A stretch of 32,785 nt of DNA from Alphaproteobacteria bacterium. GTDB taxonomy: Bacteria > Pseudomonadota > Alphaproteobacteria > ATCC43930 > CGMCC-115725. This document shows positions 2,940 to 29,932 of the stretch, one piece after another; within the stretch, counting starts at the first letter, position 1; every line of letters begins with the position of its first letter. The position numbers were made by a program, and so were the translations under genes. The DNA lies in assembly GCA_018971215.1 (NCBI GenBank), contig JAGXBG010000005.1, positions 1 through 32,785 on the forward strand. The letters run 5' to 3'. The notes beneath the pieces are model-generated. The model ran no database searches. It was not told where the DNA came from and saw only the letters and a program-made list of their open reading frames with translations.

Positions 2940-3018
2940 GGAGCCCAACGCGCGCCGCAGACGGGCGAAAATCGGCGCCCAAAGCCTTGTGCCGCCGGCG
3001 GTTTTGCGGCATGATATA

Positions 3019-3043
3019 TTGCCAAAAAAAGGAAAATCGGCAA
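3019..3043 (+). promoter_or_regulatory. repeated intergenic box, fliL copy
   Basis: TTGCCAAAAAAAGGAAAATCGGCAA; includes dyad TTGCC-N15-GGCAA; overlaps the first base of the fliL start codon. Confidence 0.7.
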
Positions 3044-3570
3044 TGGCAACCATAACACGCGATCCGCCCGCGGCGCGCCGGCGCACGCGCAAATCCGGCC
3101 GCTGGATCGTCATGCTGGCGGGGCTGGTGGTGGTCGCGGCCGGCGCCGCCGGTGGCTGGTATTACTGGCAGCACCGGAAGACGACGGTCGTCGAGGCGCC
3201 GCCGCAGCCGATTTACGTCGTGATCAAGCCGTTCGTCGTCACCATGCTCGACGACAATCAGACGACGCGCTTCGTTCAGGTCGGTGTCGATCTCGAGGTC
3301 ACGGACAAGGCCGCGAAAGAGCGCGTCGAGCAGGCGCTGCCGGCGATCCAGGACGCGATCCGCCTGCAGGTTCTGCAAAGCAAGGTCGCCGAGGTTACCT
3401 CGCCGCAAGGGGTCGAGCAGCTGCGCAAGTTGCTCATCGCCCAGGCCAACAACACGGTCAATTCCGTCATGCCGCTGCCGGCCGATCCGCACACGCCGCC
3501 GGCGAAGCCGGGTCAGGCCCCCCCGCCGCCGGTGCACAACGTCTTCTTCACCGAGCTCGTCGTCGAATGA
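3043..3570 (+). CDS. fliL: flagellar basal body-associated protein FliL
   Basis: Start re-assigned to ATG 3043 (MATITRDPPAARRRTRKSGRW + single TM); IKPFVVTMLDDNQTTRFVQVGVDLEVTDKAA ... VHNVFFTELVVE. Confidence 0.9.
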   Translation: MATITRDPPAARRRTRKSGRWIVMLAGLVVVAAGAAGGWYYWQHRKTTVVEAPPQPIYVVIKPFVVTMLDDNQTTRFVQVGVDLEVTDKAAKERVEQALPAIQDAIRLQVLQSKVAEVTSPQGVEQLRKLLIAQANNTVNSVMPLPADPHTPPAKPGQAPPPPVHNVFFTELVVE

Positions 3571-3965
3571 CCGGCCTTGGCGGCCTGACCGCGGATCCAA
3601 GCCACGCCTCGGTCTTCAGCGGCCTGATGCCGTTGCTCGTCGGCATGGGCGCCGTCGTGCTGGTGCTCGGCGGATTGCTCTGGCTGGTGCGCCGCCGTTT
3701 CGGACCGACCGGCCCGACCAAGATCGACTGCTCCGTGGTCGGCGGCCTGGCGGTCGGGCCGCGCGAACGCCTTGTCGTCGTGCGCGTCGAGGGCAAGCGA
3801 TTGCTGCTTGGCGTCACCGGCAGCGCCATCGGCCTGCTGTGCGAATTGCCGGACGTTGCCGCCCCGCCGTCGGTGCCGGCGCCGGCCGGTTTTAGCGCGG
3901 CGCTGGCGCAGGCGTTCGATCGCTGGCGCGGCGCCAAGCCTATGGATGGCGGCCATGCGCCTTAG
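3567..3965 (+). CDS. fliO: flagellar biosynthetic protein FliO
   Basis: Single TM then ERLVVVRVEGKRLLLGVTGSAIGLLCEL; between fliL and fliP. Confidence 0.82.
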   Translation: MTGLGGLTADPSHASVFSGLMPLLVGMGAVVLVLGGLLWLVRRRFGPTGPTKIDCSVVGGLAVGPRERLVVVRVEGKRLLLGVTGSAIGLLCELPDVAAPPSVPAPAGFSAALAQAFDRWRGAKPMDGGHAP

Positions 3966-4704
3966 CCGCATCCTCGTCGGCGCCGCCGGATTGTTTGTTC
4001 TGCCCATGGCCGCGCATGCCGCGCCGGCCGGTCTCGATGCCTTGATTGCCACGCCGGCCGCGCACGGCGCCGTGTCCTACACCGTGCCGATCCAGATTCT
4101 CTTGTTCATGACCGGGCTGGTGTTCCTGCCGGCCGTGCTGCTGGCGATGACGTCGTTCACCCGCATCATCATCGTGCTGTCGCTGCTGCGCCAGGCGCTC
4201 GGCCTGACTCAGACGCCGCCCAACCAGATTCTGGTCGGCCTGGCGCTTTTTCTCACCATGTTCGTCATGGCGCCGGTGTTCAACCAGGTGAACACGGCGG
4301 CGCTGCAGCCGCTGCTGCAAAACAAGATCTCGGTGGAAGAGGCTGCGACCCGCGCCGAACCCGAGCTCAAATCGTTCATGCTCAAGCAGACGCGGTCCGA
4401 CGATCTCGGCATGTTCATCAAGCTGGCCGGCGGCCAGACCTACGACAAGGCCGAAGACGTGCCGATGCGCCTGGTGGCGCCGGCGTTCCTGACGTCGGAG
4501 CTGCGCACCGCCTTCCAGATCGGCTTCCTCATCTTCCTGCCGTTCATGGTGATCGACATCGTGGTGGCGGCGGTGATGATGTCGCTCGGCATGATGCTGC
4601 TGTCGCCGGTGACAGTGTCGCTGCCGCTCAAGCTGATGGTCTTCGTGCTGGTCAACGGCTGGATGTTGGTGATCGGCTCGCTGGCGCAGGGATTCTTCTC
4701 GTGA
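3955..4704 (+). CDS. fliP: flagellar type III secretion system pore protein FliP
   Basis: Start at ATG 3955 inside ORF 3772..4704; signal peptide, MTSFTRIIIVLSLLRQALGLTQTPPNQILVGLALFLTMFVM, PFMVIDIVVAAVMMSLGMMLLSP. Confidence 0.97.
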   Translation: MRLSRILVGAAGLFVLPMAAHAAPAGLDALIATPAAHGAVSYTVPIQILLFMTGLVFLPAVLLAMTSFTRIIIVLSLLRQALGLTQTPPNQILVGLALFLTMFVMAPVFNQVNTAALQPLLQNKISVEEAATRAEPELKSFMLKQTRSDDLGMFIKLAGGQTYDKAEDVPMRLVAPAFLTSELRTAFQIGFLIFLPFMVIDIVVAAVMMSLGMMLLSPVTVSLPLKLMVFVLVNGWMLVIGSLAQGFFS

Positions 4705-4973
4705 ACCTGACCGGCGACATGGTGGCGCTCGCCGCCAACCGCATGCTGGTCGAGGCGCTGATCCTGGTGAGTCCGCCGCTCGCTGCCGTGCTGCTAGTAG
4801 GCCTGGTAGTGAGCCTCATTCAGGTCGGCACGCGCATGACCGATCTCACACTGGGGTTCGTACCGCGCTTTGCTGTCATCCTGCTGGTCACCGCGCTGAC
4901 GCTGCCGTGGATGGGCGCGCGGCTGTCGGCCTATTTCGTGTCCAACGTGGCGCAGGCCGCCGACCGGCCTTAG
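4701..4973 (+). CDS. fliQ: flagellar biosynthetic protein FliQ
   Basis: 90 aa, two TM helices, LVVSLIQVGTRMTDLTLGFVPRF; start overlaps the fliP stop. Confidence 0.93.
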   Translation: MNLTGDMVALAANRMLVEALILVSPPLAAVLLVGLVVSLIQVGTRMTDLTLGFVPRFAVILLVTALTLPWMGARLSAYFVSNVAQAADRP

Positions 4974-4981
4974 GCGCCATT

Positions 4982-5761
4982 ATGCTCGCCCTCACCGACG
5001 GCGACATCGCGCACTGGCTGGGCCTGCTGGTCTGGCCGCTGCTGCGCGGCCTGGCGCTGTTCGCTTTCGCGCCGGCCTTTGGTTCGAGCGCGGTGCCGGC
5101 GCCAGTGAAGGTCGCACTCGGCCTGGCGGTGGCGGCGGTCATCGGCGGCGTCGCCGGACCGATGGCGCCGCTCGATCTCTCATGGCAAACCGTGGCGCTG
5201 GTGTTCGAGCAGATTCTGGTCGGCGCCGCGATCGGCTTCGCCATGCGCGTGACCCTGTCGGTGATGGCGTTCGCCGGCGATCTCAGTGGCCTGCAGATGG
5301 GCTTCGGCTTCGCCACGCTGCTCGATCCGCAGGTCGGCGTGCCGATGCCGGCGATGGCCGATTTCTTCGATCTGCTCGGCACCGTGTTGTTCCTGGCGAT
5401 CGGCGGTCACCTGCTGCTGATTGCGGCATTGGTCAAAAGCTTCCAGATCGTGCCCGTAGCCGCGACCGTGGGCATCGTGCCCGCCGGCTGGGGCGCGCTC
5501 GCCGCATCGGGCGCTGCGCTGTTCCAGCTCGGCATTATTCTCGCGTTGCCGGTGGTTGCGGTCATGCTGGCGATCAATATCGCGATGGCGGTGGTGTCGC
5601 GCGTTGCGCCGCAGCTCAACATCATGTCGGTGGGTTTCGCGGTGTTCCTGTGGACGGGCATCGCCGCGACCGCGCTGCTGATGCCGTTCGTGACGCCGAC
5701 CGTCGAGCACCTGGTCGATGTCGGCTTGCGCCTGATCGAAGCGACGTTGCGCGGCGGGTGA
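4982..5761 (+). CDS. fliR: flagellar biosynthetic protein FliR
   Basis: Start at ATG 4982 (MLALTDGDIAHWLG); polytopic; GDLSGLQMGFGFATLLDP, RVAPQLNIMSVGF. Confidence 0.94.
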   Translation: MLALTDGDIAHWLGLLVWPLLRGLALFAFAPAFGSSAVPAPVKVALGLAVAAVIGGVAGPMAPLDLSWQTVALVFEQILVGAAIGFAMRVTLSVMAFAGDLSGLQMGFGFATLLDPQVGVPMPAMADFFDLLGTVLFLAIGGHLLLIAALVKSFQIVPVAATVGIVPAGWGALAASGAALFQLGIILALPVVAVMLAINIAMAVVSRVAPQLNIMSVGFAVFLWTGIAATALLMPFVTPTVEHLVDVGLRLIEATLRGG

Positions 5762-5764
5762 GCC

Positions 5765-6898
5765 ATGGCCGACGATCAGGCGAGCGAAAACAAAACTGAA
5801 GAACCGACAGGCAGGCGCCTGAGCAAGGCGCGCGAAGAAGGCTCGATCGCCCGGTCGCGCGAGCTGCCTTCGGCGATCATGCTGATGACCGGCGCCGCAA
5901 TCGTCTTCTGGGGCGGCACGATCGCGGTGTCGCTGCTCGAACGGATGGTCGCCGCCGGCTTGCATATCGATCCGCTGCTCGGCCGCGATCCGGCGCGGCT
6001 GCTGACCGGGGCGTGGATGATCGTCAAGCCGGCGCTCGAGGTCATCATCGTCTTCGGCGGCGGCATCGCGGTAATCGGCACGCTGTCGGCGTTACTGGTC
6101 GGCGGCCTGATGTTCTCGTGGCGGCCGGTGATGCCGGATCTTGCGCGGCTCGATCCGGTCCAAGGGTTCGCCCGGCTGTGGTCGCGCGACGCGCTGATCG
6201 AGATCGTCAAATCGGTGGTCAAGCTGCTCGGTGTCGCGGCCGTCGCCTATTGGTGGCTGCGCGGCGAAACGCGCAATTTCGCCGACTTGGCGCGCGCCGG
6301 CTGGCCGGGCGGCCTGTGGCAGGCCGGCAGTCTGCTCGGGCAACTGTTCCTGCTGACCTCGTTCTCGCTGGCGGTCGTCGTCCTGCTCGAAGTGCCGTAC
6401 CGGATCTGGAGTCACCGTCAGGATTTGCGCATGAGCCGCCAGGAATTGCGCGACGAGGCGCGCGAGGTCGAAGGCAATCCGCAGACCAAGCGGCGCGTCA
6501 AGCAACTGCGCCGCAAGGTGGCGCGGGCGCGCATGATGACGCAGGTGCCCAAGGCAGACGTCGTGTTGACCAACCCATCGCACGTCTCGGTCGCGCTGCG
6601 CTACCAGCAGGGCACGATGCGGGCGCCGCGGATGGTCGCCAAAGGCGTCGGGCTCGTGGCGTTGCGCATCCGCGAAGTCGCCGCCGCGCACGAGGTGCCA
6701 GTGGTCGAGGCGCCGCCGCTGGCGCGTTCGCTGCACCGCTACGTCGAGATCGAGGATGAAGTACCGGTCGCGCTCTATCGCGCGGTCGCCGAGGTGTTGG
6801 CGTTCGTCTATCGCCTGCGTGCGGCGCAGGCGGCCGGCAAGCCGGCGCCGACCGCGCCGAGCGCCAGCTTCGATCCGCCGGATGAGTTGCGGATCTAG
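5765..6898 (+). CDS. flhB: flagellar biosynthetic protein FlhB
   Basis: N-terminal KTEEPTGRRLSKAREEGSIARSREL, ADVVLTNPSHVSVALRY (NPTH-type cleavage loop, here NPSH). Confidence 0.97.
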   Translation: MADDQASENKTEEPTGRRLSKAREEGSIARSRELPSAIMLMTGAAIVFWGGTIAVSLLERMVAAGLHIDPLLGRDPARLLTGAWMIVKPALEVIIVFGGGIAVIGTLSALLVGGLMFSWRPVMPDLARLDPVQGFARLWSRDALIEIVKSVVKLLGVAAVAYWWLRGETRNFADLARAGWPGGLWQAGSLLGQLFLLTSFSLAVVVLLEVPYRIWSHRQDLRMSRQELRDEAREVEGNPQTKRRVKQLRRKVARARMMTQVPKADVVLTNPSHVSVALRYQQGTMRAPRMVAKGVGLVALRIREVAAAHEVPVVEAPPLARSLHRYVEIEDEVPVALYRAVAEVLAFVYRLRAAQAAGKPAPTAPSASFDPPDELRI

Positions 6899-7260
6899 GC
6901 CTTGCCGAGTGAACGGCGCGACGCGGCCGCGCGTTCGCCGCCGCTGGGGCCGTAGGAAGGATGGCGCTCGAGCCGCTGGAGCGTCGCCAGACCGGCACGG
7001 AAATGGCGCAGCATCTCGCCAGCGATAATGGCGTTGCCGCGACCGAGGCGGCGGATTTCAGTCAACAGGCCCGTCAGCTCGGCGTTGCGGCCGAGCGGAC
7101 CCGGCGTCACGTCGGCGAGTTGCTCCGCCAGCGCATCAGTCTCGCCGGTAATGGCGGTGACGGCGCCGAAATCGCCACGCAACAACGCCTCGCGGCCGCG
7201 GACGAGCTTGCGTTTCGTCTCGCGCAGAATGCCGACCAGCCCGGAAGGAGCGACGACCAT
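6895..7260 (-). CDS. flgN: FlgN-like flagellar chaperone
   Basis: Small helical protein (VGILRETKRKLVRGREALLRGDFGAVTAITGETDALAEQL...NAELTGLLTEIRRLGRGNAIIAGEMLRHFRAGL); start at 7260 preceded by an SD-like GGAGG; next to flgA. Confidence 0.65.
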   Translation of the reverse strand: MVVAPSGLVGILRETKRKLVRGREALLRGDFGAVTAITGETDALAEQLADVTPGPLGRNAELTGLLTEIRRLGRGNAIIAGEMLRHFRAGLATLQRLERHPSYGPSGGERAAASRRSLGKA

Positions 7261-7276
7261 GACAACCTCCATCAAA

Positions 7277-7978
7277 TCAAAGATGCATTTCGGCTTCACC
7301 GTCGGCGGTGACGGTCGCGCGGATGACCTTCTGGCTCCCCGGATTGCGCAGCGCGATGACGTCGCCGGCGCGGCCGTCCTGCTCGGCGACCACCGTGGTC
7401 TTCACCGTGACTGCGCCATCGTGCAGCGTGACGAGCACCCGCTGGTCGCGATGGACCAGGACCGGCGCCTCGAGCTGGGCGGCAAGGATCGGGCTGGCCG
7501 CCGGCACGTTGGTGCGCAACAGCTTGCCGATCGCGTCCGTCGGATCGCCGATGGGTGCGCTCGGCAGCGCCGCCGTATCGATGCGCGCCAGCGTCAGGTC
7601 GGCGGCGGTCAGTGGCCGGTTGGGCGGCAGCGCCGCGGCGGCGACGACGACGTTGCGCCATTGATGCAGCCGCACCGGCACATAGATTGTCCAGGTCGGC
7701 GCCGGGCAGGACACTTTCACGGTGATGAAGCTGCCACTCAGCGGCGGCACCGAAGTGGCCAGTGCCGGGCAGGCGGGCAGGTGGACTGCTGGATCGATGG
7801 CGGCAACGTCGACTTCGAGCATGGTCGCCGGCAGTCGCGGCGCCGCTTCCTGGACGGCGTCCGCCACGGCGGCGCGGATGGTTGCGGGATCGGCGTAGCC
7901 CGGGTCGGCCGCGGCCTTAACCGCCGGCGCCATGAGCATCACGGCGGCAAAAAGGGCCGTTCCAGCGCGGAAATCCAT
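7277..7978 (-). CDS. flgA: flagella basal body P-ring formation protein FlgA
   Basis: Signal peptide; SAF-like C-terminal half (LRTNVPAASPILAAQLEAPVLVHRDQRVLVTLHDGAVTVKTTVVAEQDGRAGDVIALRNPGSQKVIRATVTADGEAEM). Confidence 0.92.
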   Translation of the reverse strand: MDFRAGTALFAAVMLMAPAVKAAADPGYADPATIRAAVADAVQEAAPRLPATMLEVDVAAIDPAVHLPACPALATSVPPLSGSFITVKVSCPAPTWTIYVPVRLHQWRNVVVAAAALPPNRPLTAADLTLARIDTAALPSAPIGDPTDAIGKLLRTNVPAASPILAAQLEAPVLVHRDQRVLVTLHDGAVTVKTTVVAEQDGRAGDVIALRNPGSQKVIRATVTADGEAEMHL

Positions 7979-8014
7979 GCGCAAAAAACCTCTTGCAATC
8001 GGTCCGGAGGGAAA

Positions 8015-8040
8015 TTACCCTAAAAACGAAAATTCGGCAA
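8015..8040 (+). promoter_or_regulatory. repeated intergenic box, degenerate flgA-flgB copy
   Basis: TTACCCTAAAAACGAAAATTCGGCAA; same layout with a few substitutions and one extra base before the right arm. Confidence 0.45.
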
Positions 8041-8187
8041 GTTCTCGCTCCCCATCCGAACGGGCCTTTGCCGGAAGCCGAAACCGCCGCGGTTGCCGCC
8101 CCTTACCCTTCCCAGGGCGGCGCTGCCGGCGGCGGCGAATCCCGCGGTGGCCGTTGCCGGCGCGGAACGACGGGGGAGCGCGTACGA

Positions 8188-8676
8188 ATGCAAGGCCCAC
8201 TTTCAACGGGTCTCGACTATTTCCGGACGGTTCTCGATCTGCGCAGCTATCGCCAGCAGATCCTGTCCGCGAACATTGCCAACGGCAGCACGCCGGGCTT
8301 CAAAGCGGTTGACCTCGATTTTCAGTCTGCCTTGGCGGCGGCTACGGCGGCGCCGGGCGACAGCGGACAGCCGGCAACACCGCCGTCACCGTTCCTGCTG
8401 GTCGACGATCCGCCCCAGATCGGTGGCAACCCGTCCGGCCCGGCGAACGCGCCGAGCACGGAATCGCGGATCGCGGCCGCCGTGCAGAACCAGGTCAAAT
8501 ATCAGACCGGCGCGCCGGTGACGATCGACGGCAACAGCGTCGATCTCGATCTCGAAAAGCGCGAGGCCGCGGTCAACGCGCTGCAATACGAAGCCGCCGC
8601 CACCTTCACCACCGGCCGCATCAACATGCTGATGACGGCGATCCGTGGCTCGACCTCGTCGACCACGAACGGCTAG
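8188..8676 (+). CDS. flgB: flagellar basal body rod protein FlgB
   Basis: Start at ATG 8188 inside ORF 7993..8676; LRSYRQQILSANIANGSTPGFKAVDLDFQSAL. Confidence 0.93.
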   Translation: MQGPLSTGLDYFRTVLDLRSYRQQILSANIANGSTPGFKAVDLDFQSALAAATAAPGDSGQPATPPSPFLLVDDPPQIGGNPSGPANAPSTESRIAAAVQNQVKYQTGAPVTIDGNSVDLDLEKREAAVNALQYEAAATFTTGRINMLMTAIRGSTSSTTNG

Positions 8677-8686
8677 AGGCCCGCTC

Positions 8687-9124
8687 ATGTCGTTGCTTTC
8701 CGTGTTCCTGATCTCCGGTTCCGGCATGTCGGCCGAAACCGAGCGGCTCTCCGCGATCGCCAGCAATATCGCCAACGCCGACAGCGCCGCCAATTCGTCG
8801 GGCCAGCCCTATCGCGCCCGCGAAGTCGTGTTCACCGCCGCGCCGATCGCCGGCGGCGACGGCGACGTCCAGGCCGGCGGCAACGCCGCCGCGGCCGGCA
8901 TGTCGGGCGTGCGCATCGCCGGCGTCGTCGAAAGCCAGCAGCCGCTGAAGCAGGTCTACGACCCGAGCAGCCCGTACGCCGACGGCAATGGCTACGTCCG
9001 GATGCCGAACGTCAATCCGGTGGACGAGATGGTGAACATGATTTCGGCGACGCGGAACTATCAGGCCAATCTCGACGCCTTCAACGTCGCCAAGACCCTC
9101 GCCCTGAAGACTTTGTCGATCTGA
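8687..9124 (+). CDS. flgC: flagellar basal body rod protein FlgC
   Basis: SGMSAETERLSAIASNIANADSA ... GYVRMPNVNPVDEMVNMISATRNYQANLDAFNVAKTLALKTL. Confidence 0.96.
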   Translation: MSLLSVFLISGSGMSAETERLSAIASNIANADSAANSSGQPYRAREVVFTAAPIAGGDGDVQAGGNAAAAGMSGVRIAGVVESQQPLKQVYDPSSPYADGNGYVRMPNVNPVDEMVNMISATRNYQANLDAFNVAKTLALKTLSI

Positions 9125-9149
9125 TCACCCCGCGCAGGAGGACAGTGCA

Positions 9150-9845: not shown

Positions 9846-9883
9846 AACATCGATTCAAGCCGAAGCCACGGAGGACCAGAACC

Positions 9884-11137: not shown

Positions 11138-11153
11138 TCGAGGCCGTACCGCG

Positions 11154-11897: not shown

Positions 11898-11932
11898 GCA
11901 TGTGACCGTCAACCCACGGATCAGAGGACATC

Positions 11933-12721: not shown

Positions 12722-12728
12722 GCGAGCG

Positions 12729-14560: not shown

Positions 14561-14561
14561 G

Positions 14562-16030: not shown

Positions 16031-16032
16031 CG

Positions 16033-18015: not shown

Positions 18016-18026
18016 CGGAGCCGGCC

Positions 18027-19295: not shown

Positions 19296-19344
19296 CCCAA
19301 CCGCCGGTTTGAGCGGTAGTCCGCGGCTTTTCCTGTCTTTGGAA

Positions 19345-19369
19345 TTGCCAAAAAACGGAAAATCGATAT
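19345..19369 (+). promoter_or_regulatory. repeated intergenic box, glycosyltransferase copy
   Basis: TTGCCAAAAAACGGAAAATCGATAT; 20 of the first 21 bases identical to the fliL copy. Confidence 0.7.
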
Positions 19370-19408
19370 ATTCCGGAAAGTCATGCGCTGCAACAGGTGA
19401 TCAGGTCG

Positions 19409-22400
19409 ATGGACGCGATGGCTGCAATCGCCGACCCCGAGGTCGGCCCCGCGAAACCCACCGCCACGCAGGAGCCGCGGCCGGACAGCGCGCCAACCGA
19501 ACGGCGCGCTGTTTTCGTGCTCGGCATGCACCGCAGCGGCACCTCGGCGGTGACGCGCGTGCTCAACTTGCTGGGCGTCGAGCTTGGCCACGGCATGATG
19601 GCGGCGTCGCCCGACAACGAGCGCGGCTATTGGGAGCACATGGCGATCGTGCAGGAGCACCATCAGCTGCTCGAGGCGCTGGGGTCGAGTTGGGACGACG
19701 TGCGCGCCCTGCCAGCGAACTGGATGAAAACGCCGGCGGCGGCGAGCACGACGCATCGCCTCCGCACCATCGTCGAGCGCGAATTCGCCGCGGCGCCGCT
19801 GTGGGGCCTCAAGGACCCGCGTCTGTGCCGCTTGCTGCCATTGTGGCTGCCGCTGCTGCGTGCGCTGCGGATCACGCCACACTTCGTCCTGGTTCTGCGC
19901 CATCCGGCCGAGGTCGCCGCATCGCTTGCCAAGCGCGACCGCAAAAGCAACGCCGCGGCGGCGCTGCTGTGGCTGCGGCATATGCTCGAGGCCGAGCGCG
20001 CCACCCGCGGCTTGCCGCGCACCATCGTCAATTACGCGGACCTGATCGAAAATCCGCGCGACTGGACGACAGAATTCAACCGCGTGGCGGCGGAATGCGG
20101 TCTCCGTTGGTCGAACGCGTATCACGCCGTCGACGAAGCGGTTGCGGCGTTTCTGTCGCCCGGCCTGCGCCACCATCAGATCGCGGAAAAAAGCGACGGG
20201 GACGTTTGCGGCGCCTGGGTGCAGTCGGTTTACGATGCCTTGCGAACGCCCAAATGCCAGACCGGCGAATGCGACCGCGTCGCGGCCGAAATTGAGCGCG
20301 CGGACGAGGTGTGGGGACGGCTTGCCGGTGTGTCCGCCGATGCCCAACGCGGCCTATCGCCTGAGGCGATGCACGACGAGATCACGCGCTTGGAACACGT
20401 CAGCGCCGAGCTGCGCGACGCGGTATCACGCAAGGATATGGAGCTGCGCGAACTGCAAGCCTCCGTCCGCAAGTACGGCCGCGGTCCGTTGGCGACGCTG
20501 ACGGCAGCCGACGCTTACGCCAAGTGGATGGAAGGGTTCGCCAAGACGGCGACCGGTCGCGCCGACTGGGTCGCCGAACGCGTCGCGCAATGGCCGCAAC
20601 TGCCGCGCTTTGTCTTCGGCATGGTGGTGCCCGAGGGCATCGAGAGCAACGTCGCGCTGACGGTTGCATCGCTCCAGGCGTTGACCGTCGGCGACTGGCG
20701 ATTGTTCGTCGTCGGCGAGGGTCCGGCGCCGGCTGGAATCGCCGCCGATCAGCGGATCGTCTGGCAGGTTGCCGCCGACGAACGGCCGGTGGTGACGCTC
20801 AATCGACTGCTGCGCGACGCGGCGGCGGATTGGATCGGCCTGATCGACGCCGGCGACCAACTCGCGCCGCACGCTCTGTTCGCGCTCGCCGACGCCGGTT
20901 TCCGTCACGCCGACTGGTCGGCGATCTACTCCGACGAGGATCGGATCGACGGAAAAGGGCAATGCTCGAACCCGCAGTTCAAGCCCGATTTCAATATCGA
21001 CCTGATGCGCAGCATGCCCTATGTCGGCGGCCTGCTGGTGGTACGACCGGCCGAATTCGCCGCGTTGGGCGGTTTCGATGCCGAACGCGACGGTCTCGAG
21101 GAATACGATCTGGCGCTGCGGGTGGCGGAGCGCCTGGGCGCCAAGGGCTTCGGCCACGTCGCCGACGTGCTCTACCATCGTCTCGCCGGTAGCGGCCGCA
21201 CACGGCGCCCGATCCAGGAGATCATCGCCGAAGGTCCGCGCACGGTGGCCGCGCATCTCCAACGGCTCGGCTTCGATGCGACGGTTGAGTCCGGCGCGGT
21301 GCCGACGCAATTCCGCGTCCGTTATCGTCACGCCGGGCCGGAGCCGCTGGTCTCTATCATCATCCCGACCCGCGATCGGCTGCACCTGCTCAAGGAATGC
21401 ATCGAGACGCTGCTCGGCAAGACGAGCTACGCCAACTACGAAGTCATCATCATCGACAACGACAGCACCGCCCGCGACGCCCGCGAATATCTCGATCTGA
21501 TCGAGGCACGCCGCGGCGAGATCGGCTCGCGGTTGCGCGTCATCCGGCACCCAGGGCCGTTCAATTTCTCGGCGATGAACAACCGCGCCGTGCGCAACGA
21601 GGCGCGCGGCGACTATGTCTGCCTGCTCAACAACGATACCACGGTGTTCGAGCCGGAATGGCTCAGCGAGATGATGATGCACGCGCGCCGACCCGACGTC
21701 GGCGTCGTCGGCGCCAAGCTGTACTTTCCCAATCAAACCATCCAGCACGGCGGCGTGATTATGGGCGTCGGCTGGGGGGCGCCGGCCGAGCATCCCTATA
21801 TCGGCCAGCCCGAGAATGCGCCGGGTTATTGGGGTCGCCTGACGGCCGTGCAGGATTTCTCCGCCGTAACCGGCGCCTGCCTGGTGACGCGCCGCGCCCT
21901 ATACGACGAGCTCGGCGGTCTCGACGCCGACGCGCTGCACGACAATTTCCAGGACATCGACTATTGCCTGAAGGTTCGCCGCGCCGGCTACCGCGTCGTC
22001 TGGACGCCGTACGCGCGGCTGATGCACGAATCCGGCGTCAGCCGCCGCGACCGCGCGCGCAAGGAGCCGACGGCGGACCAACTGGCGCGCCTCAAACGCG
22101 AGCGCGACACAATGTACGATCGCTGGATGCCAGTGATCGCATTCGATCCGGCGTACAACCCCAACCTGTCGTCGGTCGGCACCGGTTTCGACATCGAAGC
22201 CGATCGCATGCGCTGCTGGAATCCGGAATTCCGGCCGCGGCCGCGCGTGATCGCGCACGCCGCCGATCGCGACGCTTGCGGCGAATACCGGATCATCGCG
22301 CCGAGCCGCGTACTGTTCGACGCCGGCGTGCTGCACGCCTGCGAGACCATGCGGCTGATGATGCCGCCCGAATATGCGCGCATCGCACCTGATACGGTCG

Positions 22401-23215
22401 TGTTCCAGCGCCAGATCGAAGACCACCAGATCGAGAAGATCGAGGAGATCAAACGGCACAGCCGCGCCTTTCGCGTGTTCGAACTCGACGATCTGCTCAC
22501 CAACCTGCCGCTCAAAAGCATTCATCGCCCGAACATTCCGCGCGACGTCGGTCAGCGCCTGCGCCGTGCGCTCGCCGCGTGCGATCGTCTCGTCGTCAGC
22601 ACCGAGCCGCTGGCGCAGGCCTATGGCGCGATGTGCGATCAGGTCGTGGTCCTGCCCAACCGGCTCGAGCGCAGCCACTGGCAGGGGTTGCGCGAGCAGC
22701 CGCGCACCGAAGGCCGGCCGCGCGTTGGCTGGGCGGGCGCACTCGGCCATCTCGGCGACCTGGAAATGATGGCCAGCGTGGTGGAGGAGACCGCGAAGGA
22801 AGTCGATTGGGTTTTCTTCGGCATGTGCCCGGATGCGTTGCGGCCGTTCGTGAAGGAGTTTCACGATTGGGTTCCGATCCCGGAATATCCGGCGAAACTC
22901 GCGTCGCTCGGCATCGATCTCGGCGTCGCGCCGCTCGAGTTCAATCCGTTCAACGAGGCCAAGAGCAATCTCCGGCTGCTCGAATACGGCGTGCTCGGCA
23001 TTCCGGTGATCTGCACCGACATCGTGCCGTATCAAGGCAATCTGCCGGTCCGTCGCGTCAAGAACCGTCATCGCGATTGGGTCAAGGCGATCCGCGAGGT
23101 GGCGGCGGACCGCGCGGCGTGCCGGCGCGAAGGCGAGGCGTTGCGCCAGGCGGTGCTTGCCGACTGGATGCTCGATCAGCATCTCGACGATTGGCGCAAG
23201 GCCTGGCTGCGATGA
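19409..23215 (+). CDS. multidomain sulfotransferase-like / GT2-like / GT2 / GT4-like glycosyltransferase fusion
   Basis: ORF 19397 (GTG) or ATG 19409 to 23215; N-terminal P-loop VFVLGMHRSGTSAVTRVLN with GLKDPRLCRLLPLW and LVLRHPAEVAASLAKRD; first GT-A-like domain (DWIGLIDAGDQLAPHAL...YSDEDRID); canonical GT2 (PLVSIIIPTRDRLHLLKECIETLL...VIIIDNDST...YVCLLNNDT); C-terminal GT-B-like (VLPNRLERS...PRVGWAGALGHLGDLE...PLEFNPFNEAKSNLRLLEYGVLGIPVICTD). Confidence 0.88.
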   Translation: MDAMAAIADPEVGPAKPTATQEPRPDSAPTERRAVFVLGMHRSGTSAVTRVLNLLGVELGHGMMAASPDNERGYWEHMAIVQEHHQLLEALGSSWDDVRALPANWMKTPAAASTTHRLRTIVEREFAAAPLWGLKDPRLCRLLPLWLPLLRALRITPHFVLVLRHPAEVAASLAKRDRKSNAAAALLWLRHMLEAERATRGLPRTIVNYADLIENPRDWTTEFNRVAAECGLRWSNAYHAVDEAVAAFLSPGLRHHQIAEKSDGDVCGAWVQSVYDALRTPKCQTGECDRVAAEIERADEVWGRLAGVSADAQRGLSPEAMHDEITRLEHVSAELRDAVSRKDMELRELQASVRKYGRGPLATLTAADAYAKWMEGFAKTATGRADWVAERVAQWPQLPRFVFGMVVPEGIESNVALTVASLQALTVGDWRLFVVGEGPAPAGIAADQRIVWQVAADERPVVTLNRLLRDAAADWIGLIDAGDQLAPHALFALADAGFRHADWSAIYSDEDRIDGKGQCSNPQFKPDFNIDLMRSMPYVGGLLVVRPAEFAALGGFDAERDGLEEYDLALRVAERLGAKGFGHVADVLYHRLAGSGRTRRPIQEIIAEGPRTVAAHLQRLGFDATVESGAVPTQFRVRYRHAGPEPLVSIIIPTRDRLHLLKECIETLLGKTSYANYEVIIIDNDSTARDAREYLDLIEARRGEIGSRLRVIRHPGPFNFSAMNNRAVRNEARGDYVCLLNNDTTVFEPEWLSEMMMHARRPDVGVVGAKLYFPNQTIQHGGVIMGVGWGAPAEHPYIGQPENAPGYWGRLTAVQDFSAVTGACLVTRRALYDELGGLDADALHDNFQDIDYCLKVRRAGYRVVWTPYARLMHESGVSRRDRARKEPTADQLARLKRERDTMYDRWMPVIAFDPAYNPNLSSVGTGFDIEADRMRCWNPEFRPRPRVIAHAADRDACGEYRIIAPSRVLFDAGVLHACETMRLMMPPEYARIAPDTVVFQRQIEDHQIEKIEEIKRHSRAFRVFELDDLLTNLPLKSIHRPNIPRDVGQRLRRALAACDRLVVSTEPLAQAYGAMCDQVVVLPNRLERSHWQGLREQPRTEGRPRVGWAGALGHLGDLEMMASVVEETAKEVDWVFFGMCPDALRPFVKEFHDWVPIPEYPAKLASLGIDLGVAPLEFNPFNEAKSNLRLLEYGVLGIPVICTDIVPYQGNLPVRRVKNRHRDWVKAIREVAADRAACRREGEALRQAVLADWMLDQHLDDWRKAWLR

Positions 23216-23826: not shown

Positions 23827-24722
23827 GCCGCACGATCCTCGTTCTCGGCAAAGGTAGCCAGGTTGCGCGTGAGCTGCTGAATGCGGCGTGGCCATGGGAC
23901 ATCAAGCCGATCTACGTCGGCCGCGAGATCGACATCGAGAATCAGGAGCTGGTGATCGGCCTGGCGCGCAGCTTGCGGCCGTCCCTGATCGTCAACACGG
24001 CCGCCTATACCGCCGTGGACAAGGCGGAAAACGAGCCCGACGCGGCGTTCGCGACCAACTTCGAGGCGGTCGTCAATATCGGCAAAGCGGCCGGCATCTG
24101 CGGCGCGACGGTGATCCATATGTCGACCGACTACGTCTTCGACGGCACCGGCAGCGCGCCTTATACCGAGACCGACGCCGTCAATCCGCAAAGCGTTTAC
24201 GGTCGCAGCAAACGGGCCGGTGAATCCGGCCTTGCAGCGATCGGCGTGCCGCACGTCGTCTTGCGCACCTCGACTATCTTCAGCCAATTCGAGCGCAGCC
24301 TGTTGCAACGAGTGCTGGTACGGCAGCGGCTGCAACACGACCTCGCCGGCGTGACCGACCGCGTGATCTGTCCGACTTCGGCGACCGATCTGGCGAACGC
24401 GATCGTTGCCATCGCCGCGGCGCTGCCGCGTGTCGGCGCCGCCGGCCACGGCATCTTTCATTTCGCCGGCCAGCCGGCGACGTCGGTCTTCGAGTTCATC
24501 ACCGCCGTGGTCGAGCGGGCGGCGCAGCTGGGGCTGGCGCCGGCGCAGCGGGTGCGGCCGACGGTGGCGGCGGAATGGCCCGCGGCCGCGCCGCGGCCAA
24601 GCAACGGCGCGCTCGACTGCACGAAAGTGGAGCGGGTCTGGGGAATCCGGCCACAGCCGTGGCGTGTCGCGCTCGACGCGTGCCTGCAACGCATGGCCAA
24701 GCAGACGACGGTGGCGGCATGA
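23823..24722 (+). CDS. rfbD: dTDP-4-dehydrorhamnose reductase
   Basis: LIVNTAAYTAVDKAENEPDAAFATNFEAV, MSTDYVFDGTGSAPYTETDAVNPQSVYGRSKRAGE (SDR YxxxK); ATGA overlap with rfbC. Confidence 0.94.
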   Translation: MSRTILVLGKGSQVARELLNAAWPWDIKPIYVGREIDIENQELVIGLARSLRPSLIVNTAAYTAVDKAENEPDAAFATNFEAVVNIGKAAGICGATVIHMSTDYVFDGTGSAPYTETDAVNPQSVYGRSKRAGESGLAAIGVPHVVLRTSTIFSQFERSLLQRVLVRQRLQHDLAGVTDRVICPTSATDLANAIVAIAAALPRVGAAGHGIFHFAGQPATSVFEFITAVVERAAQLGLAPAQRVRPTVAAEWPAAAPRPSNGALDCTKVERVWGIRPQPWRVALDACLQRMAKQTTVAA

Positions 24723-25630
24723 GCTTCGGCGCAGTCAACGAAATGAAAGGCATCGTGCTCGCCGGCGGCAACGGCACGCGGCTCTATCCGATGACCGTCG
24801 CGATGAGCAAGCAGCTCATCCCGGTTTACGACAAGCCGATGATCTACTACCCGATTTCGGCGCTGATGCTGGCGGGCATCCGCGAAATCCTGGTCATCAC
24901 CACGCCGCGCGACGCGGCGGCGTTCCGCGCGCTGCTCGGCGATGGCAGCCAGTGGGGCATTTCGCTCGACTACGCGGTGCAGCCGGCGCCCGAAGGTCTG
25001 CCGCAGGCGTTCCTGATCGCCGAGCCGTGGCTCGCCGGCGCGCGCGCGGCGCTGGTCCTCGGCGACAACATGTTCTACGGCCACGGCCTGACCGAACTGT
25101 TGCGGCGGGCCGCGCTGTTGCCGGCCGGCGAGACGATCTTCTGCTACGAGGTCTCCGATCCGGAGCGCTATGGCGTCGCCACCCTCGCGCCGAACGGGCA
25201 CGTCACCGACGTGGTCGAGAAGCCGATGGACCCGCGCTCGTCCTGGGCGGTCACCGGCCTGTATTTCGTCGACGAGCGCGCGTGCGATATCGTGCGGACG
25301 CTCAAGAAATCGAAGCGCGGCGAGTACGAGATCGTCGACCTGCACCGCGCCTATATGCGGATGGGTGCGCTGCGCGCCGAACGTCTCGGCCGCGGCTTTG
25401 CCTGGTTCGACATGGGAACGCCCGAAGCGCTGCTCGAAGCGGCGCAGTTCGTCCAGGCGATCGAACGGCGGCAGGGCCAGAAAGTCGCCTGTCTCGAAGA
25501 GATCGCCTATCGCCTCAACCTGATCGACGCGCGCGCCGTGGCCCATCTGACCAAGGGCCTCAACGCCAGCTACGGGCGCTACTTGGCCAAGCTCATTGGC
25601 GGCGTGAATCAAATCCGCCATTCGGCATGA
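24719..25630 (+). CDS. rfbA: glucose-1-phosphate thymidylyltransferase
   Basis: MKGIVLAGGNGTRLYPMTVAMSKQLIPVYDKPMIYYPISALMLAGIREILVITTPRD; GDNMFYGHGL; WAVTGLYFVD. Confidence 0.97.
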   Translation: MSFGAVNEMKGIVLAGGNGTRLYPMTVAMSKQLIPVYDKPMIYYPISALMLAGIREILVITTPRDAAAFRALLGDGSQWGISLDYAVQPAPEGLPQAFLIAEPWLAGARAALVLGDNMFYGHGLTELLRRAALLPAGETIFCYEVSDPERYGVATLAPNGHVTDVVEKPMDPRSSWAVTGLYFVDERACDIVRTLKKSKRGEYEIVDLHRAYMRMGALRAERLGRGFAWFDMGTPEALLEAAQFVQAIERRQGQKVACLEEIAYRLNLIDARAVAHLTKGLNASYGRYLAKLIGGVNQIRHSA

Positions 25631-25885
25631 TCGCTCGGGCGCGTCGGCCCGGACCGCGCCGCGTTTCGGACCCGGATGCACGGCGATTGCAGAAAACTTT
25701 CGCGAATTTGGATGCAGTGCCGCGCCGCGCCGTGTCGGCGCCGCCCGCAACAGGAATCGCGGCGTGCCGTCTATAGGGGTGTGGGCGGCAATTCGCGTGG
25801 CCAATCCAGTGCGCGCGGCGGGCAGCCAAACGTCAACCCCAACCCGGAGGCTCGCTCTCGCCAGGGGCGCGCCAAGGAGGACAAG

Positions 25886-27385
25886 ATGCTTTCAGGCGCG
25901 ATCAACACCAACGTCGATGCATTGTATGCATTGAATTCGTTGAACACGACGACCAACAAGACCAACACCCTCGAGCAGGAACTATCGTCCGGCTTGGCCA
26001 TCAACAGCCCGGCCGACAACCCTGCCGGTTACATTGCGGCGCAGGGCTTCACCACCCAGCTCGGTGGCGTCACCCAGGCGATCTCCAACGTCAACCAGGC
26101 GGTTTCGCTCGTGCAGACCGCCGACGGCGCGGTGCAGCAGCAGATCAACATCCTGCAGCAGCTCCGCACCATCGCCGACCAGGCGGCCAACGGCGGCCAA
26201 ACCACCTCGCAGCTCGCTTCGTTGCAACAGGTGGTGTCGCAGTTGCAGACCCAGGTGACGACGATTTCGCAGCAGGCGCAGTTCAACAACCAGAGCCTGC
26301 TCGACGGCACCTTCCAGGGCGTGCAGTTCCAGGTCGGTCCGAACGACGGTCAGACGATCCAGATCTCGATCGGCAACACCGCCGCCAATCAGCTCGGCGT
26401 CTATCAGTCGTCGCCGAATACGGCGGCCGGCATCTTCAAGGTCAACGGCGTCGCCACCGGCGGCGTCAGCGACAACACCGGTGCGTCGTACATCATCACG
26501 TCGGGCGCGGCGGGCGGCTTCACCGCTGGCTCGATCGGCGTGTCGGGTTCGGCCGGCGGCTCGAGTGTCACCGTGACCAAGGCGGAAGCGGCGAGCGATA
26601 TCGTCGCATCGGTCAACAGCGTCCAAGCCAAGACCAACGTCAGTGCGGTGGCCGATACCAGCGCCGCCTTCACGGTGACCTCGGGATCGTTCTCGTTCAC
26701 GCTGGGTGACGTCAACGCCAGCGCGAGCAACACGGTCAACATCTCGGCGACCGTGACCGGCACCGTGAACGCCAGCAGCCTCGCGGGCCTGGTGAGCGCC
26801 ATCAACCAGCAGAGCGGCACGACCGGCATCACCGCGACCGTCAATAGCAGCAACCAGCTGGTGCTGACGCAGTCGGCGGGCGACAACATCACGGTCACCG
26901 GCTACACGGGTACGGGTACCCTGAAGGCCGGTGGCACCACGCAAGTCACTCTGGGTGGCGCCACGACTTCGGCGACCGTCCAGGGCGTGGTGACGATGCA
27001 GTCGGCACAAAGCTTCGCCTTGAGCGCGGCTGCGTCCGACATCGGCCTGCAGGCCAGTTCGGCGCTGTCGAAGTTGTCGGCGGCGAACGTAGGCACGGTC
27101 GCCGGCGCCGACGCGGCCTTGAACGTGGTGGACTTCGCCATCCAGCAGCTGGAGAACGTCGGCGGTCAGCTCGGCGCCATCCAGCAACGGTTGCAAGCGA
27201 GCGTGTCCAACCTGCAAACCACGCAGGTGAACATGACCTCGGCGCTGTCCACCATTCAGGACGCGAACATACCCGCGGTCACGACCCAGCTGACGCAGGA
27301 GCAGATCCTGCAACAGGCCGGCGTCGACGCGCTCGCCAAGTCCGGTGCATTGCAGCAGAGCTTCCTCCGGTTGCTGCAACAGTAG
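25886..27385 (+). CDS. flagellin
   Basis: Start at ATG 25886 with upstream AAGGAGG; N-terminal MLSGAINTNVDALYALNSLNTTTNKTNTLEQELSSGLAINSPADNPAGYIAA; C-terminal GAIQQRLQASVSNLQTTQVNMTSALSTIQDANIPAVTTQLTQEQILQQAGVDALAKSG; Ser/Thr/Ala/Gly-rich central domain. Confidence 0.95.
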   Translation: MLSGAINTNVDALYALNSLNTTTNKTNTLEQELSSGLAINSPADNPAGYIAAQGFTTQLGGVTQAISNVNQAVSLVQTADGAVQQQINILQQLRTIADQAANGGQTTSQLASLQQVVSQLQTQVTTISQQAQFNNQSLLDGTFQGVQFQVGPNDGQTIQISIGNTAANQLGVYQSSPNTAAGIFKVNGVATGGVSDNTGASYIITSGAAGGFTAGSIGVSGSAGGSSVTVTKAEAASDIVASVNSVQAKTNVSAVADTSAAFTVTSGSFSFTLGDVNASASNTVNISATVTGTVNASSLAGLVSAINQQSGTTGITATVNSSNQLVLTQSAGDNITVTGYTGTGTLKAGGTTQVTLGGATTSATVQGVVTMQSAQSFALSAAASDIGLQASSALSKLSAANVGTVAGADAALNVVDFAIQQLENVGGQLGAIQQRLQASVSNLQTTQVNMTSALSTIQDANIPAVTTQLTQEQILQQAGVDALAKSGALQQSFLRLLQQ

Positions 27386-27391
27386 GCTAGG

Positions 27392-27454
27392 ACTCGGGAG
27401 TCGAGGGAGCCATCCCGGTTGTCCGTTACCGGGATGGTTTCCTCGCTTCCGAGT
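27392..27454 (+). terminator. extended stem-loop following flagellin, probable terminator
   Basis: Perfect 9 bp inverted repeat CCATCCCGG (27410-27418) / CCGGGATGG (27429-27437), extended outward by GAGGGAG/TTTCCTC (with G-U pairs) and by ACTCGG (27392-27397) / CCGAGT (27449-27454); short TTT after the inner stem. Confidence 0.7.
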
Positions 27455-27500
27455 GATGTGAAGGTCCGGAGGCGGTGAGGCGATTGCTGAGGAGGCAGCA

Positions 27501-29084
27501 ATGACAACGCTCAGCGGTATATTGAGTTCGAGCCAGATCGCGAGCCTGATCCAGCAGGCGAATACCGCATTCCAGATGCCTGCCCTTTTGATTCAGAGCC
27601 AGGAAAAGCCGATCCAGGCGGAGATCTCGGCGCTCGGCCAGGTACAAAACACGCTCTCGAGCCTGCAATCGGCAATGGCGCAACTCGCCCATCTGTCGTC
27701 GACGCCACCGCGCACGGTCACCGCCACGCCCAACGCGTCGGTTTCCGGTACGGCAACTGCGACGGCCGTGCCCGGAACCTATTCGTTGTCCAGCATCGTT
27801 CTCGCCCACGCCGAGAATCTGATTTCGAGCCGCTTCACCAGCCAGAGCAGTTCGCTCGGCAGCGGCACGGTTTCGATCAAGGTCGGCACCGGCTCGGCCG
27901 TCGTGGTCAACGTGCCCACCGGTCAGGATACGCTCGCCGGCGTCGCGTCCGCGATCAACGCCAAGAATGCCGGCGTTTCCGCCGCAGTGGTTTTCGACGG
28001 CACCGGCTATGAGCTGACCCTGACGGGCAGCAAGACCGGTTCGGCGAACGGCTTCACCGTCACCGGCACCGGCGGCCTCACCGGCCTGAGCTATCACGGC
28101 AGCGGCAGCCCGATGACGCAATCTCAGGCGGCGTCGAACGCAAGCTTCACGCTCAACGGCATCGCGGTCTCCAGCGGTTCCAACATCGTCACCGGCACCG
28201 TGCCCGGCGTCAGCCTGACGCTGCAGGCCAGCGGCTCGGCGACCGTCACGGTCGGCACCGATACGTCGAGCCTGTCGACGGCCGCGCAAGCCGTCGTCAG
28301 CGCACTCAACAGCGCGGTCACCACGATCGGCAAGTACGATACCTACAATGCCGCCAGCGGCGCCGGCCCGCTTCTCGGCGATGTCGGCATCGAGACGCTG
28401 CGCCAGAATCTGTTGAACGCGGTTTCAGGTCCCGGCGGCACCGGCCTGCCGTCGGGGACGGCCTACGGCTCGCTCAGTTCGATCGGTTTCGCGGTGACGT
28501 CCAGTGGCACGGTGACGTTCAACAGCACCACGTTCTCAAGCGCGCTGAACACCAATTATGCCGCCGTGGCGGCGCTCCTCGGCAGCATCGGCACGGTCAC
28601 CAGCGCGAATGTCATCGTCGCCGGCGTCGGCATCGCCAAGCCCGGCGTTTATGCCGTCAACATCACGTCGAATACCGGCGGCACCGTGATCGGCACGGTC
28701 AACGGCCAGGCGGCCAGCGGCACAGGTGGCGTGCTCGTCGTCAACGGCGCCGGCGCCGCCAGCGGCCTGTCACTCGACATCGCCGCCGGCGTCACCGGTG
28801 CGCTTGGCATGGTCAGCGTCAGCTCGGGTCTGTACAGCCAGATCAGCGGCATGCTCAACGGCGCGTTGGCGCCGTCGACCGGCTCGGTGACGCAGGAAAT
28901 CAGCAATCTCAATTCGACGCTGACCGCGATGAACAAGCAGATCACGTCGCTGCAACAGCAAGCACAGCAGCAGACCGCGTTGCTGACCCAGCAATACAGC
29001 GCCGCGCAGCAAACGTTGCAGCAGCTCACCACCGTCAGCAGCTTCCTTACGCAATACTTCTCCGCTTCATCAACCACGAGCTGA
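27501..29084 (+). CDS. fliD: flagellar filament capping protein FliD
   Basis: QIASLIQQANTAFQMPALLIQSQEKPIQAEISALGQVQNTLSSLQSAMAQLAHLS; C-terminal coiled coil MNKQITSLQQQAQQQTALLTQQYSAAQQTLQQLTTVSSFLTQYF. Confidence 0.94.
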   Translation: MTTLSGILSSSQIASLIQQANTAFQMPALLIQSQEKPIQAEISALGQVQNTLSSLQSAMAQLAHLSSTPPRTVTATPNASVSGTATATAVPGTYSLSSIVLAHAENLISSRFTSQSSSLGSGTVSIKVGTGSAVVVNVPTGQDTLAGVASAINAKNAGVSAAVVFDGTGYELTLTGSKTGSANGFTVTGTGGLTGLSYHGSGSPMTQSQAASNASFTLNGIAVSSGSNIVTGTVPGVSLTLQASGSATVTVGTDTSSLSTAAQAVVSALNSAVTTIGKYDTYNAASGAGPLLGDVGIETLRQNLLNAVSGPGGTGLPSGTAYGSLSSIGFAVTSSGTVTFNSTTFSSALNTNYAAVAALLGSIGTVTSANVIVAGVGIAKPGVYAVNITSNTGGTVIGTVNGQAASGTGGVLVVNGAGAASGLSLDIAAGVTGALGMVSVSSGLYSQISGMLNGALAPSTGSVTQEISNLNSTLTAMNKQITSLQQQAQQQTALLTQQYSAAQQTLQQLTTVSSFLTQYFSASSTTS

Positions 29085-29087
29085 ACC

Positions 29088-29471
29088 ATGAGCCCGACCC
29101 CACTCGTAGCCTATCGCAGCGTCGATTGTGCCGGCGTTTCATCCGAGCGCCTGATGATGGTGGCGCTCGATGCCGTGCATTTCTTCCTGACGCGGGCCGA
29201 AACCGCCATCGACGACGACAACCGGCAGGAGAAGGCGCGCGTTCTGGCGCGCGCGGGCCGGGTCATGGAATTCATGCTCGGCCTGACCGGCGTGCAGCCG
29301 GGAGAGCTGAGCGTCCGCCTCGCCAAGCTCTATCGCTTCGTCATCGATGGCATCGTCAAGGGGAATGCCAACGACGACAAGGACGCGATCGTCTCGGCGC
29401 GGGCCGTGATCGAAGACGTCGGCAAATTCTGGCGGATGCGGTTTCCGCACGCCGATCTGTCCGTGCAATGA
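29088..29471 (+). CDS. fliS: flagellar export chaperone FliS
   Basis: SSERLMMVALDAVHFFLTRAETAIDDDNRQEKARVLARAGRVMEFMLGL; directly after fliD. Confidence 0.85.
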   Translation: MSPTPLVAYRSVDCAGVSSERLMMVALDAVHFFLTRAETAIDDDNRQEKARVLARAGRVMEFMLGLTGVQPGELSVRLAKLYRFVIDGIVKGNANDDKDAIVSARAVIEDVGKFWRMRFPHADLSVQ

Positions 29472-29529
29472 CCATGCGATGGCATTGCGGGTCAGGAGCA
29501 GCAGGGAACGTTCCAGCAAGGAGTGGACG

Positions 29530-29856
29530 ATGACGACCAATCCCATCAGTGGCGTGACCAATCCAATCGTTGCCGATGCCACGGCGCCGGGCACCCAGGC
29601 CGCGGGCGGCGCCAAACCCGATAGCGGACCGTCGGGTGTCGCCGCGACTTCCGTCGACAGCGGCGAGGTTTCGCATGCTCAAACGCTTCTCAACGCGATC
29701 AGCACCATGGCGCAGAACATCCCGTCGGTGGACCAACAGCGTGTCGACCAAATCCGCGCGGCGATCGCACAGGGTAAACTGTCGGTTAACGCCCAGAATA
29801 TCGCCCAGCGCTTGGCCGAGATCGAAGCCCAGCTCGGCGCGCCGTCGTCGGGTTGA
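29530..29856 (+). CDS. flgM: anti-sigma-28 factor FlgM-like protein
   Basis: Start at ATG 29530; C-terminal VDQQRVDQIRAAIAQGKLSVNAQNIAQRLAEIEAQL matches the FlgM C-terminal pattern. Confidence 0.8.
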   Translation: MTTNPISGVTNPIVADATAPGTQAAGGAKPDSGPSGVAATSVDSGEVSHAQTLLNAISTMAQNIPSVDQQRVDQIRAAIAQGKLSVNAQNIAQRLAEIEAQLGAPSSG

Positions 29857-29862
29857 GACAGG

Positions 29863-29880
29863 CCACGGTGGAAGCCGTGG
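29863..29880 (+). terminator. short stem-loop after flgM
   Basis: CCACGG-tggaag-CCGTGG perfect 6 bp inverted repeat; no U-tract, so terminator function is uncertain. Confidence 0.35.
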
Positions 29881-29907
29881 ATAACGGGGAAAATCGCGAA
29901 ATTGTTA

Positions 29908-29932
29908 TTGCAAAAAATAGGAAAATCGCTAA
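29908..29932 (+). promoter_or_regulatory. repeated intergenic box, dual-HTH regulator copy
   Basis: TTGCAAAAAATAGGAAAATCGCTAA; same spacing as the fliL and glycosyltransferase copies. Confidence 0.68.

Follow-up and report, generated by a model that had tools for sequence, protein, structure and literature searches.

The window analysed here, a stretch of 32,785 nucleotides from an alphaproteobacterium of the GTDB lineage ATCC43930; CGMCC-115725 (assembly GCA_018971215.1, contig JAGXBG010000005.1, positions 1 to 32,785), carries a flagellar gene cluster in which several intergenic regions contain copies of a short A-rich element, hereafter the box. A sequence-only reading had described it as an element of about 21 bp at 3019, 19345 and 29908, with a weaker form at 8015, and had proposed that it defines a flagellar regulon. 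The boxes, the genes that they adjoin and the candidate promoter and binder are the following:

2987..3015, + strand: candidate fliL core promoter, TTGTGC-N17-CATGAT, 3 nt 5' of box 1
3019..3043, + strand: box 1, TTGCCAAAAAAAGGAAAATCGGCAA, in the fliJ-fliL gap, its final base being the A of the fliL ATG (3043)
3043..3570, + strand: fliL, heading the export-gate unit fliL-fliO-fliP-fliQ-fliR-flhB and assigned from its position, the gene order and its matches in related genomes
8016..8040, + strand: box 2, TACCCTAAAAACGAAAATTCGGCAA, between the divergent flgA and flgB
19345..19369, + strand: box 3, TTGCCAAAAAACGGAAAATCGATAT, in the flgL-glycosyltransferase gap
19397..23215, + strand: giant glycosyltransferase, 3' of box 3, starting at GTG 19397 or ATG 19409
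29479..29856, + strand: flgM (anti-sigma-28), immediately 5' of the regulator gene
29908..29932, + strand: box 4, TTGCAAAAAATAGGAAAATCGCTAA, in the flgM-regulator gap
29991..31115, + strand: gene of a 374-aa regulator, the candidate binder, with two XRE-type helix-turn-helix (HTH) domains (about 37-93 and 131-185) and a C-terminal predicted fold similar to lambda CI/LexA

The 21-bp sequence TTGCNAAAAANNGGAAAATCG is present in three exact, ungapped copies on the + strand of the window, at the three positions originally reported, and is matched in none of 100 dinucleotide-preserving shuffles of the window. All three copies are intergenic (fliJ-fliL, flgL-glycosyltransferase and flgM-regulator) and none falls in coding sequence, in agreement with the sequence-only reading. 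Genome-wide copies were sought by pattern search, while matrix scoring was run on contigs; in the 2.54-Mb assembly of the window genome (G000) the pattern search recovered, at up to two mismatches, only the three window copies, and the fourth match, which differs at three positions, comes from a different contig. Once all copies are aligned the conserved element proves to be 25 bp long instead of 21, and takes the form of an imperfect dyad with a consensus of approximately TTGMCGAAAANCGGAAATTCGGCAA. Its symmetry amounts to a mean of 5.65 complementary pairs out of 12, against 2.94 +/- 0.29 in shuffled sites. The weaker copy between flgA and flgB is likewise real and is best placed one base further on, at 8016-8040. 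Near the regulator's own box, 32 bp 5' of it, there is additionally a partial second copy, GGGGAAAATCGCG (29884-29896), which is nearly conserved in G002 and may be an auxiliary site.

Comparisons were made with three genomes of the same genus (G001, G002 and G003) and with genus g6 of the same family (G008, G022, G030 and G034), among others. G002, a metagenome-assembled genome (MAG), shares with G000 the boxes at fliL, the glycosyltransferase and the regulator, the glycosyltransferase copy being found on two contigs. In the gap alignments of these two genomes box identity is 21/21, 21/21, 20/21, 25/25 and 25/25, while the sequence outside the boxes is 59-87% identical. The flgA-flgB gap is 87% identical throughout, with a box identity of 25/25, and thus the flgB box carries little weight by itself between two genomes this closely related. 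G001 has the box at fliL; its other targets are not assessable, as its contig ends in flgN and its assembly lacks flgC and the second half of the cluster. In G003 neither fliL, flgC, the regulator nor the box was found. Beyond the genus, a diverged, ungapped version of the box is present at the same promoters in a second genus and in one genome of a third. Genus g6 shows an ungapped relative just 5' of the fliL ATG (e.g. TTGACGTAAAGCGGGAATTCG) and a sequence beginning TTGACGATAA upstream of its regulator orthologues, which are 45-50% identical. Counterparts 5' of the regulator were recovered in G002, G022, G008, G030 and G036, and counterparts of box 2 in G002, G008, G022, G030, G034, G036 and G061, the flgA-flgB gap of six genomes from two other genera containing ATAACGAAAAATGGAAATTCGGCAAGTT or a close variant. 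The flgL-glycosyltransferase gap of G036 has the diverged form ATGACGAATTTCGGGAATTCC. Presence in the same gaps of related genomes, which had been named beforehand as a test of the box, is therefore borne out by G002 and, in diverged form, by other genera.

The glycosyltransferase itself (19397-23215) combines an N-terminal sulfotransferase-like domain (Sulfotransfer_3) with a GT2 domain. Two similar, non-identical flgK-flgL-glycosyltransferase starts occur within the single MAG G002 (contigs C89 and C271), which perhaps represent a strain mixture or a duplication.

The box also has predictive value. When matrices were built without the promoter being tested, 27 of the 30 held-out sites outscored every other untrained position on the flagellar contigs of the respective genome, and the rest came second or third; the ranks of the fliL, glycosyltransferase and regulator sites constitute a weaker test, because these sites had first been picked by eye. 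With the final matrix each listed site scores at least 20.9, and no position in 128.8 kb of control DNA, which includes the FlbD-type flagellar region of G010 and the second flagellar set of G034, scores 14 or more. Two sites within coding sequence that score at least 14, in the regulator gene of G008 (L224:7432) and in flgA of G061 (L228:16384), were set aside. Regions upstream of fliL in relatives that lack the regulator score at most 7.1. A search of 384 other alphaproteobacteria with the full consensus and three mismatches recovered single matches in ten genomes, compared with eight for a reversed control pattern, and these matches were put down to chance. Since the box is absent beyond chance from both the controls and these 384 genomes, it appears to be private to one uncultured lineage. 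That the boxes are merely chance A-rich repeats, as might be supposed for A-rich sequences in a window of 66% GC, is extremely improbable in view of the empty shuffles, the retention of the boxes at the same promoters in different genera and the gap between control and site scores. The second flagellar gene set of G034, on contig C322, is divergent and without boxes.

A matrix derived from the other sites further pointed to a fifth target, with copies 5' of fliE-fliF in G022, G034 and G061. The copy in the genome of the window lies outside the window on another contig (G000:C15, 4424-4448, minus strand), and further ones occur in G002 and G008; all fliE sites were found with matrices that contained no fliE sites. 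In each of the six genomes with a match (G000, G002, G008, G022, G034 and G061) the fliE box is inverted relative to the gene, which points to a DNA operator rather than a directional promoter. The first gene of this operon codes for a tPilZ protein (PF16823) and is followed by fliE-fliF. Being similar to cyclic di-GMP receptors, the tPilZ product (G000:C15, 4491-5183), at the head of an operon with a box in front of it, suggests an input of cyclic di-GMP to early flagellar assembly. The cross-genus conservation, the leave-one-out prediction, the fifth flagellar promoter and the absence of the box elsewhere together support the proposal that it defines a flagellar regulon of one uncultured lineage. 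What was observed directly comprises the box, its conservation and its target set. Its association with the starts of flagellar transcription units holds for five targets; what changes from the original picture is the nature of the element, an imperfect dyad that occurs in either orientation and not a directional promoter.

The element might instead be a promoter element for an alternative sigma factor or a 5' leader RNA element. The fliL box abuts the start codon and contains AGGA, its 21-bp copy stopping 3 nt short of the ATG at 3043 so that the ribosome-binding region is also covered; the TTGCC and GGCAA ends could pair; and at the glycosyltransferase a fitting TATATT lies 16 nt downstream. 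Nevertheless, this is very improbable given the inversion of the fliE copies in 6/6 genomes and a distance between start codon and box that ranges from 3 to more than 60 nt across the targets. Scans for known elements were equally negative: the sigma-54 pattern TGGCAC-N5-TTGC with up to two mismatches has 31 matches in the window, against 39 expected, and none at any box, the FliA pattern TAAA-N15-GCCGATAA has none in the window with spacers of 13-17, near-matches to GCCGATAA alone coincide with no box, and an Rfam scan at gathering scores detected no known RNA leader family. The earlier judgement that the boxes match neither the sigma-54 nor the FliA consensus is thereby upheld. Two narrower versions were also rejected. 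Were the box a mere -35 element (TTGCCA/TTGACG), the start would fall inside fliL, and the fliE copy is again inverted; the same inversion rules out an RNA hairpin or a CsrA-like site.

The most likely binder of the box, judged from sequence, is the tandem-HTH protein encoded at 29991-31115. It matches HTH_3 (PF01381) in two stretches (6.9e-18; 64.9 bits against a cut-off of 23), which places it in the XRE family, and all four orthologues tested match the same profile. Searching the PDB by sequence with the regulator gave no match. In an AlphaFold2 model built from 28 homologues the best PDB structure matches of the predicted C-terminal domain are lambda repressor (4.0e-5 and 5.5e-5) and LexA (2.6e-4), and the model aligns with a CI fragment with a TM-score of 0.66 (target length), consistent with an S24-like fold. 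Position 294 is S in seven close orthologues and S, T or A among all 28 homologues, while the sequence alignment, as distinct from a structural superposition, contains no conserved lysine in residues 284-345 that could complete a Ser-Lys dyad; RecA-type self-cleavage is thus unlikely. Close orthologues (at least 45% identical) are found in G000, G002, G008, G022, G030, G034 and G036, and G061 has a fragment at the edge of a contig, so that 8/9 genomes with this flagellar cluster have an orthologue, the exception being the half-assembled G001; elsewhere in the family only weak partial matches were detected. The presence of the box in the regulator's own promoter in both genera suggests autoregulation. 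It is a speculation that the two HTH domains explain the differing halves of the site and its asymmetric centre.

Gut alphaproteobacteria encode relatives of the regulator, about 26% identical, away from any flagellar cluster, and in these dual-HTH/CI-like proteins from gut MAGs the second recognition helix is almost invariant (SVYHR.EM). Beside the regulator in the window a small open reading frame of about 80 aa (about 31150-31392, - strand) encodes MVEQVAACAVRDLSD...WVQREMARYEDL; its relatives in genus g6 are divergently oriented, lie between flgM and the regulator and share a C-terminal helix motif. Its product might act together with the regulator.

Alternatively, the box might be occupied by another transcription factor that is not linked to the cluster, the dual-HTH gene being merely one of its targets. 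The link to the binder rests on inference, and G001 retains a fliL box while no regulator was detected in it; half of the G001 cluster is, however, missing from the assembly. We consider this distinctly unlikely, as the regulator is confined to genomes with the box and has the box in its own promoter, and the obvious other candidates do not fit. G000 has just two strong sigma-54 activators (PF00158), NtrX (711 bits, cut-off 600) and NtrC (720 bits, cut-off 558.6), both of them general nitrogen regulators. Against the FlbD profile (NF050807, cut-off 750) these two score only 276 and 344, respectively; FlbD, being absent from G000, was ruled out as the box binder. The box differs from the CtrA consensus, and no CtrA site (TTAA-N7-TTAA or TTAACC-type) was found 5' of fliL in G000, G002, G022, G034 and G008, the promoters scanned. 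In G010, which is flagellated and has neither box nor regulator, a protein above the FlbD cut-off is encoded 32 kb from fliL, in line with FlbD control having been replaced in the lineage with the box. FliA and FlgM are present in G000, and hence the late class is probably controlled by FliA, although the FliA consensus of the E. coli type is absent from the window.

The position of the boxes relative to candidate core promoters provides a clue to the sign of regulation. The spacing of the candidate fliL promoter is kept in G002 (TTGCGC-N17-CACTAT) and G001 (TTGCGC-N17-CATCAT). The left end of box 2 overlaps a candidate -10, TACCCT, with its -35, TTGCAA, at 7993-7998 and a spacer of 17. In the genus of the window fliE, flgB and fliL have a candidate promoter with a TTGC- or TTGT-type -35, a spacer of 16-18 and a weak -10 just 5' of the box. 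Box 3 possibly has a built-in -35/-10 pair, TTGCCA-N16-TATATT (19345-19372), and box 4 a comparable TTGCAA-N16-TAACTT. The box would therefore cover the -10/start region at fliE, flgB and fliL and span -35 to -10 at the glycosyltransferase and the regulator. Such a location over candidate -35, -10 and start regions, combined with the CI-like fold, favours repression. We accordingly propose that the box is the 25-bp imperfect dyad operator of a single transcription factor, the two HTH domains of the cluster-encoded CI/LexA-fold protein reading the two halves of the site. The bound protein would block RNA polymerase at the core promoter and so repress both the early flagellar operons and its own gene, the targets being tPilZ-fliE-fliF, fliL-flhB, flgB, the glycosyltransferase/flagellin segment and the regulator gene itself. 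Repression, in a genome that has no FlbD, would be lifted by some signal. The choice of binder and the negative sign are our best guess from the sequences, and on balance we regard it as somewhat probable that an autoregulated tandem-HTH repressor of early flagellar operons acts through the dyad box in this FlbD-less genome.

The same protein could, on the other hand, bind the same operator as an activator of early flagellar operons at weak CTTGC-type promoters. The candidate -10 elements are weak, the boxes of genus g6 bear CTTGACG at their left end, which could adjoin or act as a -35, and regulators encoded within a cluster often activate genes that are switched together. A box on or after the -10 (fliE, flgB and fliL), or one spanning -35 to -10 (glycosyltransferase and regulator), would be unusual for an activator, and the fold resembles the repressors lambda CI and LexA, though CI itself can activate; activation is in our view fairly unlikely. 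Several observations nonetheless weigh against the proposed repression by the tandem-HTH protein, or against parts of it. An activator at these positions could also touch the -35. The promoter assignments are consensus matches only and several of the -10 elements are poor, and no comparable upstream promoter is evident at fliL and the regulator in genus g6. The structural model is of moderate quality (mean predicted local distance difference test score, pLDDT, 74.5; predicted TM-score, pTM, 0.45). At fliL, G036 and G061 have a degraded box or none; G034 has only a weak copy in front of the regulator; and G022 and G034, in which flgL almost abuts the glycosyltransferase gene, lack the glycosyltransferase box. 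The fliL box of G001, in its half-assembled cluster, stands without a regulator, as noted. Finally, within a single lineage the co-occurrence of regulator and box amounts to few independent events.

Flagellar hierarchies are run by a small number of master regulators, which in the alphaproteobacteria are mainly CtrA and FlbD/sigma-54. A dedicated regulator acting on a short element at several flagellar operons is common to the box and to the FlbD/ftr system of Caulobacter crescentus, where FlbD binds ftr elements and directly represses the early fliF promoter via ftr4 (PMC3930126). FlbD is, however, a sigma-54 activator of the NtrC family, whereas the candidate binder of the box is a tandem XRE/CI-like protein and the boxes coincide with no sigma-54 promoter; the ftr elements were compared by description and not by sequence. 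In the class II system of CtrA a single regulator similarly acts at fliF, fliL, flgB and comparable early promoters, and CtrA represses where a half-site overlaps the -10 (PMC6180460), but its sites are TTAA-N7-TTAA, TTAACCAT or TTAA half-sites, none of which is present in the fliL boxes. The XRE-family protein XrpA of Cereibacter sphaeroides lowers flagellar gene expression by direct DNA binding; it binds ctrA and chpT, is RpoN3-dependent and affects flagella indirectly (PMC11999139), unlike the box, which lies at structural operons (XrpA and the regulator were again compared by description). With lambda CI and LexA the regulator shares the XRE-type HTH (CI) and the predicted C-terminal fold, as well as, in the proposed mechanism, an operator over the core promoter and autoregulation; it differs in having two HTH domains per chain, no conserved catalytic lysine and flagellar targets. 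A literature search, conducted largely without subscription journals, found no description of the box, and searches on the ftr consensus, on XRE proteins and flagella and on CI/LexA-like motility repressors turned up XrpA and, beyond it, general reviews only. The novelty lies in the pairing of regulator and box, together with its target set, in a lineage without FlbD; a shared operator in a flagellar regulon is in itself ordinary.

More broadly, we put forward only tentatively the notion that this uncultured lineage has exchanged the FlbD/sigma-54 checkpoint for a phage-repressor-like tandem-HTH protein that represses all early operons and its own gene via a shared dyad operator. The target set, the 25-bp site and the single candidate protein make the proposal testable in vitro without culture, and regulator and box together could serve as a marker for this flagellar type in metagenomes. 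If true, a CI-like protein with an operator at every early operon, in the absence of FlbD, would represent an independent solution to the control of flagellar assembly and would show how such regulons can be rewired.

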